A stretch of DNA of 46,628 bases, taken from NCBI GenBank assembly GCA_014381505.1, contig JACNLK010000084.1, positions 1 through 46,628 on the forward strand, in the 5' to 3' direction. Every line of letters begins with the position of its first letter. The first letter of the stretch is position 1. This document shows positions 20,487 to 39,835 of this stretch, in pieces. The position numbers and the translations under genes are program-made. The DNA comes from Candidatus Desulfatifera sulfidica. Lineage in GTDB: Bacteria; Desulfobacterota; Desulfobulbia; Desulfobulbales; Desulfocapsaceae. The notes below the pieces were generated by a model. It was not told where the DNA came from. It searched no databases and worked only from the letters and a program-made list of their open reading frames with translations.

Positions 20487-20498
20487 ACACCACAGGAT

Positions 20499-20533
20499 AC
20501 TTTGAAAAATCAGGTTGTTCGTTCAAGGTCAGG
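20499..20533 (+). repeat. End fragment of the dispersed 92-bp repeat
   Basis: ACTTTGAAAAATCAGG and the following TTCGTTCA match the left end of the copy at 39539 in 25 of 27 positions, after which similarity fades. It lies in the 23-bp gap between two convergent genes and runs into the kinase, so that the kinase stop codon and its last codons are made of repeat sequence. Confidence 0.7.
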
Positions 20534-23443
20534 GCCCTCAATGGGTAATTCGATGATAAACGTCGTTCCCTGACCCGGCTCACTCTCCACCCGGAGCCGA
20601 CCTTTATGGCGATCATGGATAATGGCATAAGAGACCGAAAGGCCCAGGCCAGTCCCCTCCCCCACATCTTTCGTGGTGAAAAAGGGATCAAAGATATGTT
20701 TTTTGACCTCATCCTCCATTCCCGGCCCATTGTCCGCGACTTCAATCCGCACCCACTCCTTGTCCTGTCGGGTTGTACGCACGGTCAAGCGCCGCTGACC
20801 CTCCTGGCCAAACATGGCGTGAACCGCATTCTTGACCAGATTGACAATAACCTGCTCCACCTCCATGGGCACACAGACGATAGCGGGCAGACCATCCTCG
20901 TATTCCTCAACAATTTCGACATTGATAATGCCGTAATTCTTCTTCAGGTCATAATCAGCCCGAGCGAGAATCAGAGCACTCTCCAGGACCTGTCGCAGGC
21001 TGGCCTGCATGGAATAGCCTTGATGGGGACGACTGAAATCAAGCAGACTCTTGATGATTCGCGCGGCATTTTCAGCTGAGGAGCGGATCCCGTTCAAAAA
21101 GAAATCCAACTCTTTTGTCTTAAAATACTCCCTGATTTGAGCAAGTTCCAATCCGCAGAGCCCTGCGGCCTCCCGGTTTTGAGGGTACTCGTCAGACAAC
21201 CCGCGCTGAATCATCTGCACCGACTGAAAAATAGTACTCAAAGGAGTATTGATCTCATGAGCGACACCCGCGGCCAATCCGGCAATGGTGGTCATCTTCT
21301 CAGAGAGAATCAGCTGGTCCTCCATCTGTTTACGGTTGCTGATGTCTTTGGCCACATGGGCGATCATCTCCAGATTGCCCTCCCCGTCGTAGACAGGTGA
21401 AGCCGACACCAAAAAGGTAAGCCCCAGTTTCTCATGGACAATTTCCCGAGAATAAGCAATATCGCCACTTGTGGCTTCAAGAACGGGACACCCTTCACAG
21501 GGCTCATTACTGCCATGAAAGATCTCATAACAGTGACGGCCAAGGATCTCTTCATGCGGCAGACCAAGAACTTTTTCAGCCGCCACATTCGCCTGCACAA
21601 TACGCATCTCCGTATCCTGGATGGTGACCACATCGGTGAACGAACGGAAGGTGCGCTCCCATCTGTCCCGGCTGCTCCGCAGGACCCTTTCAATCTCCCG
21701 CTGATCACTCAGGTCATGGAACGTCACAAAAATACTGAGAGGCTGGCCCTGCTCATCACGAACAATGCGGACCGTCACCTGAATCGGAACCCCGGTGGGA
21801 TTGTCTGGATGATCAGCCTCCATGGTCAAGACTTGATCCCGTTTTTCCTCCTGGGCCCGGCAGACCGGACAGGACACACCCTCACCCTCGGGATGGATAA
21901 TTGACTCAATGTGAGCGCCAACAGCCTGCTCCGGTGAGCTCTTGGTCATCTGATAAAAGGTCCGATTCGCCTGAAGGATATGACGTTCAGTATCAAGAAG
22001 ATAGATGGCATCGGCAGAGGCATCCATGGCCGCAGACCATTCGCGTGCGGCCTTGGCCAGAGACTCCTGCGCCTCTTTCATGGCAGTGACATCGCGGCTG
22101 ACTCCGATCACCCCGATCACATCACCCTCTGGGCTGCAATAGGGTATTTTAATGGTATCCATGGCCAGACGAACACCATCCGCTGCGGTGACCCACTGCA
22201 GTCCTGAACGAAAATGGCCCGTTTCAGCGGCCAACTGATCCTTTGACCGATAAGACTGGGCCACTTCCTCGGGAAAGAGGTCAAAATCACTGCGACCGAT
22301 AATAGCCTCCCGACTCAACTGATGGTACTCCATAAAGGCCCGGTTACAGCCAAGATAGAGACCTTCCTGATCTTTATAATAAATCAGGTCGGGTATGGAA
22401 TCCATCAGGCTCTCCAAAAGACCTCGAGCGACTCCTGCCGCACTTTCCGCACGCTTGCGCTCCTGCACTTCCTGGCTCATGGCCCCGATCATTCGGCCGA
22501 AGGTCAGGAAAAGGACCGAAAGAATCCCTGCAAACAAAGCCAACGAAAAGACGAGAAAACGAACAACAAATTGTTTCTTTTTCTGCTGAATTTCAGTCAC
22601 ATCCTGAAGGAGTAGCATGCCGCCGAAATCTGCACCGAGATCGTCCTTAAACTCAGAATGGACATGAACAACATAATTTCTGCCGTTGATCATGACCCGC
22701 TGGCTATGCTCTTTACTTGCCAGCGCTACAGAATCGGGCAGGTCCATAAAGATTTTCTGATTGTGGGTATTGACCAGATAATCTCCCAGCTGACGCATAC
22801 GGTAATGGGGGGTCTGAGGCTCAACTGGCCAGGCCTCTTTTTTGACAAAGGTGGTGACCTGCACACCATGCACTCTGGTCAATTTTTCCACAAAGAGATG
22901 CAGGTCGACGCCCAACTCCACGGCACCAATATACTGCTCACCTGCAAAAAGTGGCTCAATAACGCGATAAAACACACCGCTGCGGCCAACCTCAAAGCCA
23001 CTGAGCGATTGTCGTTCGGCATGAACCCGGCGAATCATCGGCCTGACCTCATCCACCTGATCGTCAAAAAATTCCGGCCGATGAACACGAAGCAGGGTGG
23101 TGCCATCCGCCAGATGAAAATGCATCACCTTAACAGAGGGGTTCTCCCGCTGAAGGACTTCGAAACGGGGCAGGGCCAGTTGCAGCAATCGTTCCCGATC
23201 CTGCTCGACCATGGCCTCAAGATATTCTCCACGCATAATGGGCATGAATCGCAAACGCTCCTGATATGGACGCAGACCCAGGTCCTCAATCAGGCGAACA
23301 TGCTCATCAATATGCGCCTCGGCATCAAGGATGGAGTCCTCAATGGCCATATTGTGCTGATACACCTCAACCCAGAGGGTGGTCAGGGAAAATATTAAAA
23401 AACCGAGACCCACAAAAAACAGCGCCTTTGTCTTTTCAGTCAC
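20510..23443 (-). CDS. dCache-PAS-PAS-PAS sensor histidine kinase
   Basis: A 977-residue kinase. The GTG at 23443 is preferred because GGGGAG lies seven bases upstream; a TTG at 23470 overlaps that site. Membrane helices at about 8-26 and 293-315 flank a periplasmic double-Cache domain (with [15 protein letters not shown] near 107, typical of the dCache_3 type). Three PAS domains follow (about 341-456, 466-581, 591-701), then HisKA with H729 in VAHEINTP and a full HATPase domain ([26 protein letters not shown]). PAS2 and PAS3 contain CPVC and CEGC cysteine pairs that may sense redox state or metal. No receiver partner lies nearby. Its extreme C-terminus is encoded by a repeat fragment. Confidence 0.92.
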
Positions 23444-23792
23444 CTTCCAACTCCCCCCCGCACCCCACAAAAGACAAGATTTCCTTCCCTATCAATAACG
23501 AACACAACCCTCTTTCTGCTTAAAAAAACACGAGACAGGCAGTCACTCCTTGCCGGATAGCAAGAATACCTTCCCCCCCCACAAGAGGGGCCTTAACACC
23601 ATATCATAAGCAGGAAGAACATTCAAATATTTTTCATCGTCTTCTCCAGTAGATAGAAGTGTTTACTACTCTCAAAATCTTTTCACAGGGAGACTTGACA
23701 ATGTACCGTACAAAACACACCATCAATATTCAGCTGAGACCTGGCCAAAAGACCAATCCTGAATGTTTTTTCCTCCCTTTCTCTTTTCCCTC
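23444..23792. other. Intergenic region between the kinase and ORP-like cluster
   Basis: This is the larger part of a 449-bp divergent gap. It is AT-rich with a small inverted repeat CTTGC/GCAAG (23549-23564) and the palindrome TGTACCGTACA (23702-23712) directly after an isolated TTGACA. No gene or convincing leftward promoter was found. Confidence 0.4.
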
Positions 23793-26132: not shown

Positions 26133-26142
26133 CTGACGACAA

Positions 26143-26217
26143 ACTTGAAAAATGAGCAAGTTTGGCCAAAGTCAAGGCTGCAACGCAGTATTTGGGCAAA
26201 AGGGCAGATATTCAAAC
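26143..26217 (+). repeat. Shortened, diverged copy of the dispersed repeat
   Basis: It begins ACTTGAAAAAT and ends ATATTCAAAC, and its interior block CAACGCAG...TGGGCAAAAG corresponds to CAACGCAGATCCTGGGTGAAAAG in the copy at 39539. It is about 75 bp, so an internal part is missing. It lies just after the ORP-like cluster and may fold into a hairpin. Confidence 0.45.
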
Positions 26218-26334
26218 TTACCTGACATGGCTCCGCCAAATCCATCTGGCCTGCGGATCAAATTGACCTTCACAAGCACCTGACCCCAGCCATACATTCA
26301 TCAATCATCCACCTTCAGCACTTTGCCAATCCAC

Positions 26335-27849
26335 ATGACCACAATCACCAGCGACGACTTCATCAATTCCATTGCCAATGCCCTGCAGCGAATCTCCTAC
26401 GCCCACCCGCGGGATTTCATTCAGGCCATGGCCCGGGCCCATGAACTTGAACAGAACCCGGCGGCCAAGGATGCAATGGCTCAGATCCTAGTCAATTCCC
26501 GCATGGCGGCCATGGGTCAGCGCCCCATCTGCCAGGATACGGGTATCGTCACCTGCTTTCTCAAGGTTGGAATAGACTGTCACATTGACACTAAACTCAG
26601 CATGCAGGAGCTGGTGGACGAAGGTGTACGCCGAGCCTATACCGATGCTGACAATCCGCTGCGAGCCTCGGTGGTTGCCGATCCAGCCGGAGAGCGAACA
26701 AACACCAGAGACAACACCCCGGCCGTGATTTACACCGAACTGGTCCCCGGCGATACCATCGAGATCGCTCTGGCTGCCAAAGGTGCCGGCTCTGAAAACA
26801 AATCGAAATTCGCCTGTCTCAATCCCGACGACTCCATCGTCGACTGGGTCACAAAAACAGTACCAACCATGGGTGCCGGCTGGTGCCCACCGGGAATTCT
26901 TGGTCTTGGGATCGGCGGAACCGTCGATCGCGCCATGGTCCTGGCCAAAGAGTCTCTCATGGCGCCAGTTAACATGCAGGAGCTGCTGGATCGAGGACCG
27001 CAAAACCGCATTGAAGAGCTGCGAGTTGAGATTTACAAAGCCGTCAACAGTCTCGGCATCGGTGCCCAGGGTCTGGGAGGACTGACCACGGCCCTCGATG
27101 TCAAGATCCTGGACTGCCCTACCCACGCGGCCTCTTTGCCCGTTGCCCTGATTCCCAACTGCGCGGCCTCCCGTCACATCCATTTCACGCTCGACGGCAG
27201 CGGACCGGCCCACTTTGAGCCTATCCGCCTTGAGGACTGGCCCGCAATCAAATGGGAGGTCAGTGATTCTGTCAAACGGGTCCAACTGGATAACATCAGT
27301 CGCGAAGAGATTGCCAACTGGCAGCCGGGCGAGACCCTGTTGCTGAACGGCACCATACTCACCGGACGGGATGCTGCCCATCGTCGAATCCAGGGATTAC
27401 TCGCCCAAGGGGCCCCCCTGCCAGAGGGGGTGGATTTCAAGGGCAAGTTTATCTATTACGTGGGCCCCGTTGACCCCATAGGCGATGAGGCCGTTGGCCC
27501 GGCCGGCCCCACCACCTCCACCCGAATGGACAAGTACACCGACATGATGCTGGATCTTGGACTCATGGGCATGATCGGCAAATCCGAACGTGGCCAGGCA
27601 ACCATTGATGCCCTCAAGGTCAGCAAGTCGGTCTACCTCATGGCCGTGGGCGGCGCCGCATACCTGGTCTCCAAGGCCATCAAAAAATCCCGGATTGTCG
27701 CCTTTGAAGATCTGGGAATGGAGGCCATCTACGAATTCACAGTTGAGGACATGCCGGTCACCGTCGCCGTGGACACACGCGGCCAGGCGGTGCACCAGAG
27801 CGGCCCCACTCTCTGGCAACAAAAGATCCGCGACCTCAGGGACAGATGA
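26335..27849 (+). CDS. fumA: Fumarate hydratase, class I (fused alpha and beta domains)
   Basis: A 504-residue iron-sulfur hydro-lyase converting fumarate and malate in the citric acid cycle. The alpha domain includes ICQDTGIVTCFLKVG (C66) and DCPTHAASLPVALIPNCAASRH, supplying ligands of the catalytic [4Fe-4S] cluster; the beta domain starts at about 330 (GRDAAHRR, then YYVGPVDPIGDEAVGPAGPTTSTRMDKYT with the usual GPAGPTTS motif). In many anaerobes the two parts are separate genes; here they are one chain. The ATG at 26335 is used; a TTG four codons upstream is also in frame, and neither has a strong ribosome site. It stands alone between two repeat copies. Confidence 0.93.
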   Translation: MTTITSDDFINSIANALQRISYAHPRDFIQAMARAHELEQNPAAKDAMAQILVNSRMAAMGQRPICQDTGIVTCFLKVGIDCHIDTKLSMQELVDEGVRRAYTDADNPLRASVVADPAGERTNTRDNTPAVIYTELVPGDTIEIALAAKGAGSENKSKFACLNPDDSIVDWVTKTVPTMGAGWCPPGILGLGIGGTVDRAMVLAKESLMAPVNMQELLDRGPQNRIEELRVEIYKAVNSLGIGAQGLGGLTTALDVKILDCPTHAASLPVALIPNCAASRHIHFTLDGSGPAHFEPIRLEDWPAIKWEVSDSVKRVQLDNISREEIANWQPGETLLLNGTILTGRDAAHRRIQGLLAQGAPLPEGVDFKGKFIYYVGPVDPIGDEAVGPAGPTTSTRMDKYTDMMLDLGLMGMIGKSERGQATIDALKVSKSVYLMAVGGAAYLVSKAIKKSRIVAFEDLGMEAIYEFTVEDMPVTVAVDTRGQAVHQSGPTLWQQKIRDLRDR

Positions 27850-27977
27850 ACCACCTTTCCCTTGAGCCAGCCCGCCTACCCGCCAAAACATGACACTCCC
27901 TTGCAAGGCAACGGTAAAAAACATATACTGAAACGAAGCCGAGAGCTTATCTGTTCGGCAGGGCCGATACAAGGCGA

Positions 27978-28069
27978 CCTTGAAAAATTGTCTTTCCACT
28001 CAGGATTCGTATTGCGTGCAAAATTATTGTGCGACCTGATCCTGAACGAAAATTCTTATTTTTCAAAAG
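27978..28069 (-). repeat. Full copy of the dispersed 92-bp inverted-repeat element
   Basis: In plus orientation it reads CCTTGAAAAAT (27978-27988) to ATTTTTCAAAAG (28058-28069). Read on the minus strand it aligns end to end with the copy at 39539: 25 of 29 bases at one end and 27 of 30 at the other. A second pair of inverted arms lies inside the terminal ones, so the whole element can fold into one long hairpin. It lies between fumarase and a small hypothetical gene. Confidence 0.8.
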
Positions 28070-28118
28070 ACCTTTTTCTGTCGGTTGAGACCAAACCTCG
28101 AACACAAGGGGCAATGGC

Positions 28119-28334
28119 ATGAAAAAAGAAGTGGAAATGATCTGCGTCTCAGACCTGGAAGGATTCAGCCAGGAGAAATACGAGGCTGCGAAGAAAACCA
28201 TAGGTGAATTCTTAAAAAAATACGGTTGGGAATACGGTGACTGCGTCATCGAAGAAAAGGGAAAGGTCTGGTGCTGCAAGGCGGCTGCCATCTGGTTCAT
28301 GATCCAGGACGAAACCTTACATGACGAAGATTAA
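28119..28334 (+). CDS. Hypothetical 71-residue protein
   Basis: A short soluble, charged protein without signal peptide or membrane segment. AAGGGG lies seven bases before the ATG, supporting translation. The second half has two cysteines in VWCCKAAAIWFM and one in YGDCVI. I do not recognise a family. It lies 25 bp upstream of a membrane protein gene and may be co-transcribed with it. A dispersed repeat copy ends 49 bp before the start. Confidence 0.6.
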   Translation: MKKEVEMICVSDLEGFSQEKYEAAKKTIGEFLKKYGWEYGDCVIEEKGKVWCCKAAAIWFMIQDETLHDED

Positions 28335-37964: not shown

Positions 37965-38035
37965 CAATCTCCTCCAACAGTATCTCGGTACAGAAACTGG
38001 ACACAAGCACCAGTTTCCGCCCCCTCTTCAGGTGA

Positions 38036-38140
38036 CTTTGAAAAATTATTTTTCGTGAACCACAAAAGACCCACAAGCTTTCAAAATTCCACAACGCCCA
38101 GATCATCCCACTCTGCGCTGAGCAAACAGACTATTTTTCC
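38036..38140 (+). repeat. Doubtful, heavily diverged copy of the dispersed repeat
   Basis: It starts with the exact end sequence CTTTGAAAAAT and contains TTTTTCGTGAAC and later ACAACGCCCAGATC, echoing blocks of the clear copies; the far end ACTATTTTTCC overlaps the thiC stop. The middle does not align well. The first 19 bases contain the perfect palindrome GAAAAAT-T-ATTTTTC. Confidence 0.3.
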
Positions 38141-39468
38141 TCATCCTTTGTGCAGCCGCACCCATCCGTCTTCGCCTTCTCCAGATTCACCTGCGAGCGA
38201 TTAAAGACCTGAATGGCACAATACGATCCACACATGGAACAGGCAGGGGTCTTGTCGCTGCCACCCTCACTGCGGAAACGAGCCGCCTTTTCCGGATCCA
38301 GGGACAACTCAATCTGTCCCTTCCAGTCAAGTTTGCTCCGGCGAATGGCCATGAGGCGGTCACGTTCCAAAGCTCCGGGAACGCCCTTAACCAGGTCGGC
38401 TGCATGGGCGGCAATCTTTGAGGCAATCACACCTTCATGTACATCCTGGACATCCGGCAGCTTAAGATGCTCAGCCGGAGTCACATAACACAGATAATCT
38501 GCACCGGCCGCAGCAGCAATGGCCCCACCAATGGCACCTGTGATATGATCATACCCGGGCGCGATATCGGTCACCAACGGCCCCAGGACATAAAACGGAG
38601 CATTCTTGCACATCTTTTTCTGTAACATTATATTGGCAGTGATCTGATCCATGGGCATGTGACCGGGACCCTCGATGATCACCTGCACACCGGCATCCCA
38701 GGCACGTTCGGTAAGTTCACCCAGATTAATCAACTCCTGGACCTGGTTGCGGTCAGTGGCATCGGCCAGGCAACCAGGTCGGATACCATCACCAAGACTC
38801 AGGGTCACCTCATGCTCCTTGAGGATGGCCAGCAGATCATCAAAGTATTCAAACATGGGGTTTTCTTTCCCATGGTGACTCATCCACTCCAGGGTAAAGG
38901 AACCACCACGGCTGACCACACCCATGACCCGTTTCTGCCGACTGAGTCGTTCCTGGAGATGGCGGTTAATGCCGCAATGGATGGTCATGAAGTCAACCCC
39001 GTCAATGGCCTGTTTCTCGATGACCTTAAACATCTCATCAACGGTGACATCAACGATATTCTTGTTCTGCTGCTCCACGGCCTCGGCGACTGACTGGTAA
39101 ATGGGCACCGTCCCCAGAGGTACCGGGCAGTTGGCAAGAATCTGACGTCGAACGTCATCAAGATCTCCGCCCATGGACAGGTCCATCATGGTGTCAGCAC
39201 CGGCCTTAATGGCCACCCGCACTTTCTCCAGCTCTTCTTCCAGGCTATTGATATCTTTTGAAGAACCAATATTGGCGTTGATTTTGGTCCGGGTGCCCTT
39301 ACCAATACCGATCACCGGATCAAAATCATGATGAATGTTTTTGGTGATGGCAATAGTCCCCTCGGCCACTCCGGCCATGAGCTGCTCCACCGGAATGGCT
39401 TCATTTGCGGCACAGCTCTCAAAGAGAGGTGTCACTTTGCCCTGAATGGCATCTTCACGAATCGACAT
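38131..39468 (-). CDS. thiC: Phosphomethylpyrimidine synthase ThiC
   Basis: A 445-residue radical-SAM enzyme converting aminoimidazole ribotide to HMP phosphate for thiamine. This is the short form without the extra N-terminal domain. The C-terminal cluster motif is CSMCGSYC (C-x2-C-x3-C spacing). GIGKGTRTKINANIGSS near 50, EGPGHMPMDQI and HCGINR are family blocks. The ATG at 39468 lies nine bases after AAGGAG; an ATG two codons upstream is too close to that site. No other thiamine genes are nearby. No TPP riboswitch is visible upstream; instead there is a hairpin followed by TTTT and a dispersed repeat copy. Confidence 0.95.
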   Translation of the reverse strand: MSIREDAIQGKVTPLFESCAANEAIPVEQLMAGVAEGTIAITKNIHHDFDPVIGIGKGTRTKINANIGSSKDINSLEEELEKVRVAIKAGADTMMDLSMGGDLDDVRRQILANCPVPLGTVPIYQSVAEAVEQQNKNIVDVTVDEMFKVIEKQAIDGVDFMTIHCGINRHLQERLSRQKRVMGVVSRGGSFTLEWMSHHGKENPMFEYFDDLLAILKEHEVTLSLGDGIRPGCLADATDRNQVQELINLGELTERAWDAGVQVIIEGPGHMPMDQITANIMLQKKMCKNAPFYVLGPLVTDIAPGYDHITGAIGGAIAAAAGADYLCYVTPAEHLKLPDVQDVHEGVIASKIAAHAADLVKGVPGALERDRLMAIRRSKLDWKGQIELSLDPEKAARFRSEGGSDKTPACSMCGSYCAIQVFNRSQVNLEKAKTDGCGCTKDEEK

Positions 39469-39499
39469 AACCATAGACTCCTTGCTGTAGATATTCAAA

Positions 39500-39519
39500 A
39501 CAGCGGCAGATGCCGCTGT
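39500..39519 (-). promoter_or_regulatory. Terminator-like hairpin in the thiC leader
   Basis: ACAGCGGCA and TGCCGCTGT form a perfect stem with almost no loop, followed on the minus strand by TTTT, about 30 bases before the thiC start codon. If transcription begins further upstream it would act as an attenuator. Confidence 0.45.
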
Positions 39520-39538
39520 CATTTTCCATAAATGGGTA

Positions 39539-39630
39539 CTTTGAAAAATCAGGGTTTTCGTTCAGGAGCAAGGTGCACGAAAAATTTCAAACGCAACGCA
39601 GATCCTGGGTGAAAAGACAATTTTTCAAGG
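39539..39630 (+). repeat. Full copy of the dispersed 92-bp inverted-repeat element (reference copy)
   Basis: Terminal inverted repeats CTTTGAAAAAT (39539-39549) and ATTTTTCAAGG (39620-39630) agree at 10 of 11 positions. Inside them, TTTTCGTTCAGGA (39555-39567) and TCCTGGGTGAAAA (39603-39615) are inverted with 10 of 13 matches. The element has no coding capacity. It lies upstream of thiC, 70 bp from the chosen start. Confidence 0.82.
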
Positions 39631-39835
39631 CAGCCTGATATAATTATTGAGGTATCATCAATAAATTGTAGCCTACCACCTTGTGACAGATACTACTCGC
39701 ATGACATACTGCATGCACCAACTATCCACCCGTTCATCACGAGTTCTGACAAACTGCCCTGTCACCGAAAACAGTACGTACCGACCCATATATAGCCGGT
39801 TCGGCAAATGTTCTCAAGTCTCCTCTCTCGCCAAC
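39631..39835. other. Rest of the gap between thiC and recD
   Basis: No gene is evident. A weak leftward promoter (TTTATT, 17 bases, TATATC) could lie near 39642-39672, which would put the repeat copy inside the thiC leader; the match is too poor to annotate separately. No intrinsic terminator of recD was recognised. Confidence 0.35.

Follow-up and report, generated by a model that had tools for sequence, protein, structure and literature searches.

MITEs are usually viewed as deletion products of one IS element, sharing its fate. Correia and RUP elements are trans-mobilized intergenic MITEs with IS-like ends, to our knowledge of a single end type each, and IS5-derived MITEs are short and non-coding, with IS5-family-like terminal inverted repeats and a 4-bp target duplication. 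Among other repeats, the ERIC/IRU elements of Enterobacteria are given a length of 127 bp (PMC2759123), and REPs, which have a RAYT partner, are described as 20 to 40 bp long and without flanking target duplications (PMC3733652). For the deltaproteobacterium Pelobacter carbinolicus, uncharacterized intergenic multicopy nucleotide sequences have been catalogued (PMC3543383).

The window analyzed here, a stretch of 46,628 nucleotides from Candidatus Desulfatifera sulfidica, contains several copies of an inverted-repeat element. Like IS5-derived MITEs, the element is short and non-coding, with similar ends and target duplications, but its inside is a conserved structured core common to elements with other ends and not a deleted IS. 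It resembles Correia and RUP elements in its intergenic position, its IS-like ends and its apparent mobilization in trans; however, a single core occurs here, within one phylum, with five or more types of end. ERIC/IRU elements, compared by description, are likewise long imperfect palindromes of similar size, intergenic and in high copy, but the present family differs in its clear target duplications, its several interchangeable types of end and its identifiable partner IS elements. REP/BIME sequences are extragenic palindromes as well; unlike them, the present element is 141 bp long with target duplications and lies outside the definition of a REP. The Pelobacter sequences, likewise compared by description, are also intergenic, multicopy and uncharacterized. 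Rfam covariance models gave no relevant match in the window or in full-length copies, and the literature on shared-core MITEs, Desulfobacterota repeats and MITE cross-mobilization, in a search that covered few subscription papers, contained no matching description.

Judged from its sequence, the element has the features of a MITE (terminal inverted repeats, target duplication, a short non-coding multi-copy form, a partner IS and presence/absence among genomes) but departs from the usual expectation that the inside is a deleted partner IS. We consider it likely that it is a non-autonomous 141-bp MITE, mobilized in trans, whose hairpin core has repeatedly acquired new transposase ends. The following features were recognized in the window:

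39534..39635, plus strand: short tip-deleted copy 1, 102 bp (GGGTAC...GCAGCC; covariance-model match at 39550-39622, E = 1.2e-6)
39534..39550, plus strand: left terminal inverted repeat of copy 1, GGGTACTTTGAAAAATC, type A, resembling IS5-family IS ends
39555..39567, plus strand: 5' arm of the core inner stem of copy 1, TTTTCGTTCAGGA
39603..39615, plus strand: 3' arm of the core inner stem of copy 1, TCCTGGGTGAAAA, pairing with 39555-39567
39619..39635, plus strand: right terminal inverted repeat of copy 1, AATTTTTCAAGGCAGCC
27973..28073, minus strand: short copy 2, 101 bp long and flanked by a fumarase gene (26323-27849) and a 71-aa ORF (28119-28334)
about 26138..26222, plus strand: degenerate, further shortened copy (covariance-model match at 26154-26209, E = 0.0048)
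20495..20537, plus strand: left-end fragment without a right end; a sensor histidine kinase ORF (20510-23470, minus strand) overlaps it with its 3' end
38032..38140, plus strand: doubtful, very old remnant with a TIR-like GGTGACTTTGAAAAATTA and no covariance-model match

Copies 1 and 2 showed 80% identity over 90 bp (E = 1e-16) in a within-genome comparison; the two related inverted-repeat copies of the earlier note are real, and so is the second, inner inverted pair that it had described. Its limits, corresponding to a size of about 92 bp, located both copies correctly but were slightly too narrow, the ends lying a few bases further out (39534-39635 and 27973-28073). Nor is 92 bp the length of the family, whose complete form measures 141 bp: copies 1 and 2 are worn, tip-deleted members of it, and 39 model positions of the hairpin tip are absent from copy 1 according to the covariance model. 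The shortened copy suspected at 26143 was supported by the same model, and the fragment at 20499 proved to be a true left end. This fragment covers the stop codon region of the histidine kinase ORF and may form part of its C-terminus. The copy at 38036, already called doubtful, is still so. No target duplication was recognizable at copies 1 and 2, and a promoter scan at the window copy gave no signal above chance. A GC-rich, terminator-like hairpin was observed at 39500-39519, between copy 1 and the coding region of thiC (ORF 38131-39522, minus strand).

Most full copies in the genome of origin are 141 bp long (GGGTACTTTGAAAAATTAGGATTTTCGTTCAAGATCAAGGCGCGCTCAAAATTTTACCGCAGGCATATAGTCGATATTCCGAGGATAAAATTTTGAGCGCAACGCAGATCTTGGGTGAAAAGACAATTTTTCAAGGTAGCC), with a core of about 107 nt between terminal inverted repeats of about 17 bp each, and without coding capacity; this was also the commonest length in each of the five end types. 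The modelled strand of the complete form folds into one long imperfect hairpin (-63.2 kcal/mol, z = -10.8). In the short copies the deletion sits between two AAAATTTT direct repeats, an outcome as given by slippage across a hairpin, and decay of this kind would have produced the 101- and 102-bp forms of the window. Deletions of the whole core occurred independently between CAAATTGG repeats in Desulfosarcina alkanivorans and between CGAAAT repeats in genome G006, leaving elements of 43 to 45 bp. Hairpin-slippage deletions were seen in three genomes. The core-less elements, apparently slippage deletions between short direct repeats, are as follows:

900844, 973726, 1736956 and 2532783 of genome G039, and 3828854 of genome G006: core-less elements of 43 to 45 bp, two ends only (L298-L302)

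The core was constant across genomes, and the outer 17 bp or so varied, giving at least five end types, all of which start with G:

Type A, GGGTACCTTGAAAAATT: exact 4-bp flanking duplication, in 55 of 91 copies (3.7 expected from shuffled flanks)
Type B, GAGCCTTTTGCAAAATG: 4-bp duplication, in 8 of 17 copies (0.8 expected)
Type C, GTGTCCGTCCAGAAACG: 6-bp duplication, in 23 of 47 copies (1.5 expected)
Type D, GAGTCTGTTGATTTAAT: invariant AT flanks (5 copies)
Type E, GGAGGCTGTCCGAGAAT: TA flanks on most copies

Distant families carried further end types beyond these, and two end types can co-occur in one genome.

The multi-copy family that the earlier note had suspected was confirmed in the draft genome of origin (2.08 Mb, 101 contigs), where at least 40 distinct places matched. 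The target-site duplications that it had suggested looking for are those listed above; they are not visible in the two window copies. As for empty sites, the flanks of 14 copies of this genome were joined without the element and compared with one congener (G001). At four loci (L011, L012, L020 and L030) the congener has an alignable, element-free orthologous intergenic region, but the junction is too diverged to be read to the exact base. Identical copies were found at contig ends in several drafts, which fits recent spread. The target duplications, the copy number and the species-specific presence show the family to be mobile, as read from its genomic traces.

Relatives also carry the element. 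A covariance model built from 33 diverse cores matched 87 of 395 sampled genomes and 61 of 246 genera of the phylum, some genomes holding 133, 135, 147 or at least 150 copies. Among the core-pattern matches listed for species genomes were sulfate-reducer-type records (Desulfobulbus, Desulfocapsa, Desulfofustis, Desulfosarcina and related MAGs); other phyla may also harbor the core. The viral contigs, phages and plasmids searched gave no family match, so that nothing points to sequenced phages or plasmids as carriers. Its copy number, above 100 in some genomes, means that the family also affects the assembly and annotation of sulfate reducers.

Genome G006 contains a 1334-bp IS with ends GGGTTCCTTGAAAAATA...TTATTCAAGGTGCCC that encodes a 337-aa IS5-family transposase (NF033581, E = 1.9e-83). 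Nineteen matches of this transposase were found in that genome, with 4-bp duplications at some copies, and G005 and G015 contain relatives of the IS whose ends are similar. The type A ends match those of this IS. Its ends and interior are present without the element's core, and the core is common to elements of other end types; thus, the inside of the element is not a deletion derivative of the partner IS. For its part, Desulfosediminicola flagellatus harbors an IS1182-family IS (502 aa, NF033551, E = 1.3e-114) with GGAGGCTGTCCGAGAA ends, in tandem with two type E elements, whose ends match those of the IS. The IS5 and IS1182 transposases are related, each matching the model of the other. For types B, C and D, no IS with corresponding ends was found; in Desulfosarcina alkanivorans the search for a type C partner gave none and returned instead 45-bp core-less elements resembling slippage deletions.

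A transposase with the same ends, another of the checks proposed in the earlier note, was therefore found in relatives, but not in the draft assembly of the genome of origin: no DDE_Tnp_1 (PF01609) transposase scored over the cut-off in that assembly or in its genus. It may have been lost in unassembled repeats, or may be gone. Four contigs of the assembly terminate in an IS-like end, GTCTATTTTTCAAGGAACCC, seen only at contig ends. To judge from the matching ends, the transposase that moved a given copy would be that of the IS whose ends it carries. In G006, a type A element abuts a full IS5-family IS with only TTAA between them (L262, right of 1346). Directly outside the IS1182-family IS, Rfam identified a c-di-GMP-I riboswitch (L134, 4073-4164, minus strand; E = 3.6e-9).

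In pairs with a core identity of at least 0.90, the end identity was 0.91 within types versus 0.53 between types, and between types it remained at 0.46 to 0.53 at every core identity. Since it is independent of core identity, a discrete replacement of the ends is favored over gradual change. L204 (type C) and L177 (type D), with a core identity of 0.935, have an end identity of 0.50; for L092 (type A) and L147 (type C) the values are 0.925 and 0.35. The relatedness of the IS5 and IS1182 transposases, the register and 141-bp length constant in all types and the common initial G would also be accounted for by an ordinary MITE whose ends co-evolved gradually, without swapping, with one diversifying transposase lineage of the IS5/IS1182 superfamily. 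However, end identity between types stays flat as core identity rises, near-identical cores carry different ends, the target duplications depend on the type and two types can share a genome, so that we regard gradual co-evolution as unlikely. The between-type end identity of about 0.5 exceeds the random value of 0.25, and this baseline similarity may reflect a shared composition of the ends or a partly common origin. The earlier note had proposed a MITE or a REP-like hairpin. Its first option agrees with the terminal inverted repeats, the lack of coding capacity, the 4-bp duplications and the transposases with matching ends in relatives. A REP/BIME-type palindrome moved by a RAYT (Y1) transposase would share the palindromic structure, the intergenic position and the high copy number, but the long terminal inverted repeats, the target duplications of 4 or 6 bp, the length of 141 bp and the ends in common with DDE-transposase IS elements make it extremely improbable.

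The core itself raises the question of what its fold does. Among the 33 diverse cores, 16 of 33 pairs showed two-sided changes and 95.3% of the cells paired, with a covariation score of 0.287 versus 0.120 for shuffled controls and at most 0.097 for slid controls. The tip hairpin and the internal loops (GCA opposite GA and, further down, AA opposite GCA) were almost invariant. Core cells contained 68 G-T versus 10 A-C combinations, 40 of the 68 G-T coming from two adjacent pairs, and the modelled strand folded better in 30 of 30 non-redundant elements (by a mean of 10.7 kcal/mol), although the elements are related and the counts are not independent. The G-T excess and the better fold of the modelled strand indicate a strand-specific constraint, as expected of single-stranded RNA or DNA and not of a double-stranded cruciform. 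This strand-specific covariation, the invariant loops and tip and the conservation across the phylum would suit a beneficial host cis-acting RNA element (terminator, mRNA stabilizer or regulator) spread incidentally by IS ends. Copies were mostly intergenic, but by crude ORF calls their orientation relative to flanking tandem genes was random (41 same, 35 opposite; p = 0.57), and by the same calls convergent gene pairs were not favored (22 versus 38 divergent). The absence of both preferences speaks against an action in cis on host mRNAs, and a host regulator or terminator role was rejected on the random gene orientation, within the precision of such calls. Shortened and core-less copies persist, moreover, and presence varies between congeners; a host RNA element is in our opinion very unlikely. 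Equally slight is the probability that a single-stranded DNA hairpin on the lagging strand drives the mobility of the core, with the IS ends secondary. The slippage deletions suggest hairpin formation in vivo, and an exploratory and heterogeneous analysis of three complete genomes placed the folding strand on the lagging strand in ratios of 28:15 (G006), 24:6 (G039) and 28:29 (G038), pooled 80:50 (p = 0.011). G038 is without bias, however, and the target duplications are those expected of DDE transposition; we treat the lagging-strand bias as a lead only.

According to the preferred reading, that of a trans-mobilized MITE with exchanged ends, IS transposases of the IS5/IS1182 kind would recognize the ends of the element and insert it, each leaving its own target duplication. 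Exchange of the ends, which would have occurred several times, probably by recombination or by template switching at the base of the hairpin, which is palindromic, would allow the element to persist as one IS disappears and the next one spreads. The core would be kept as a one-strand fold, most likely acting in transposition or replication, as single-stranded DNA or through a transcript of the element itself, rather than in the mRNAs of neighboring genes. From these sequence patterns we have moderate confidence that the fold serves the propagation of the element itself. More tentatively, and with considerable doubt, the core might be a selfish structured module present throughout the phylum, active in single-stranded form (RNA or DNA) and taking the ends of whichever IS is active, that is, a transposon satellite that switches transposases and survives the turnover of IS lineages. 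One conserved structured core with exchangeable ends suggests how a non-autonomous element could outlive its transposases, and the family allows tests of how such ends are acquired and of why a strand-specific fold would be kept by a selfish element.

Some cores carried insertions of their own. REP-like hairpins of about 25 nt (GTAAGCG...CGAGACTCCG), a nested palindrome family, were inserted within the cores of L160, L200, L218, L219, L228 and L230, in Desulfobulbus and relatives. In the MAG Del10 (L139, 2731-4454), a type A element is apparently split by an insertion of about 1.6 kb in its 5' stem.
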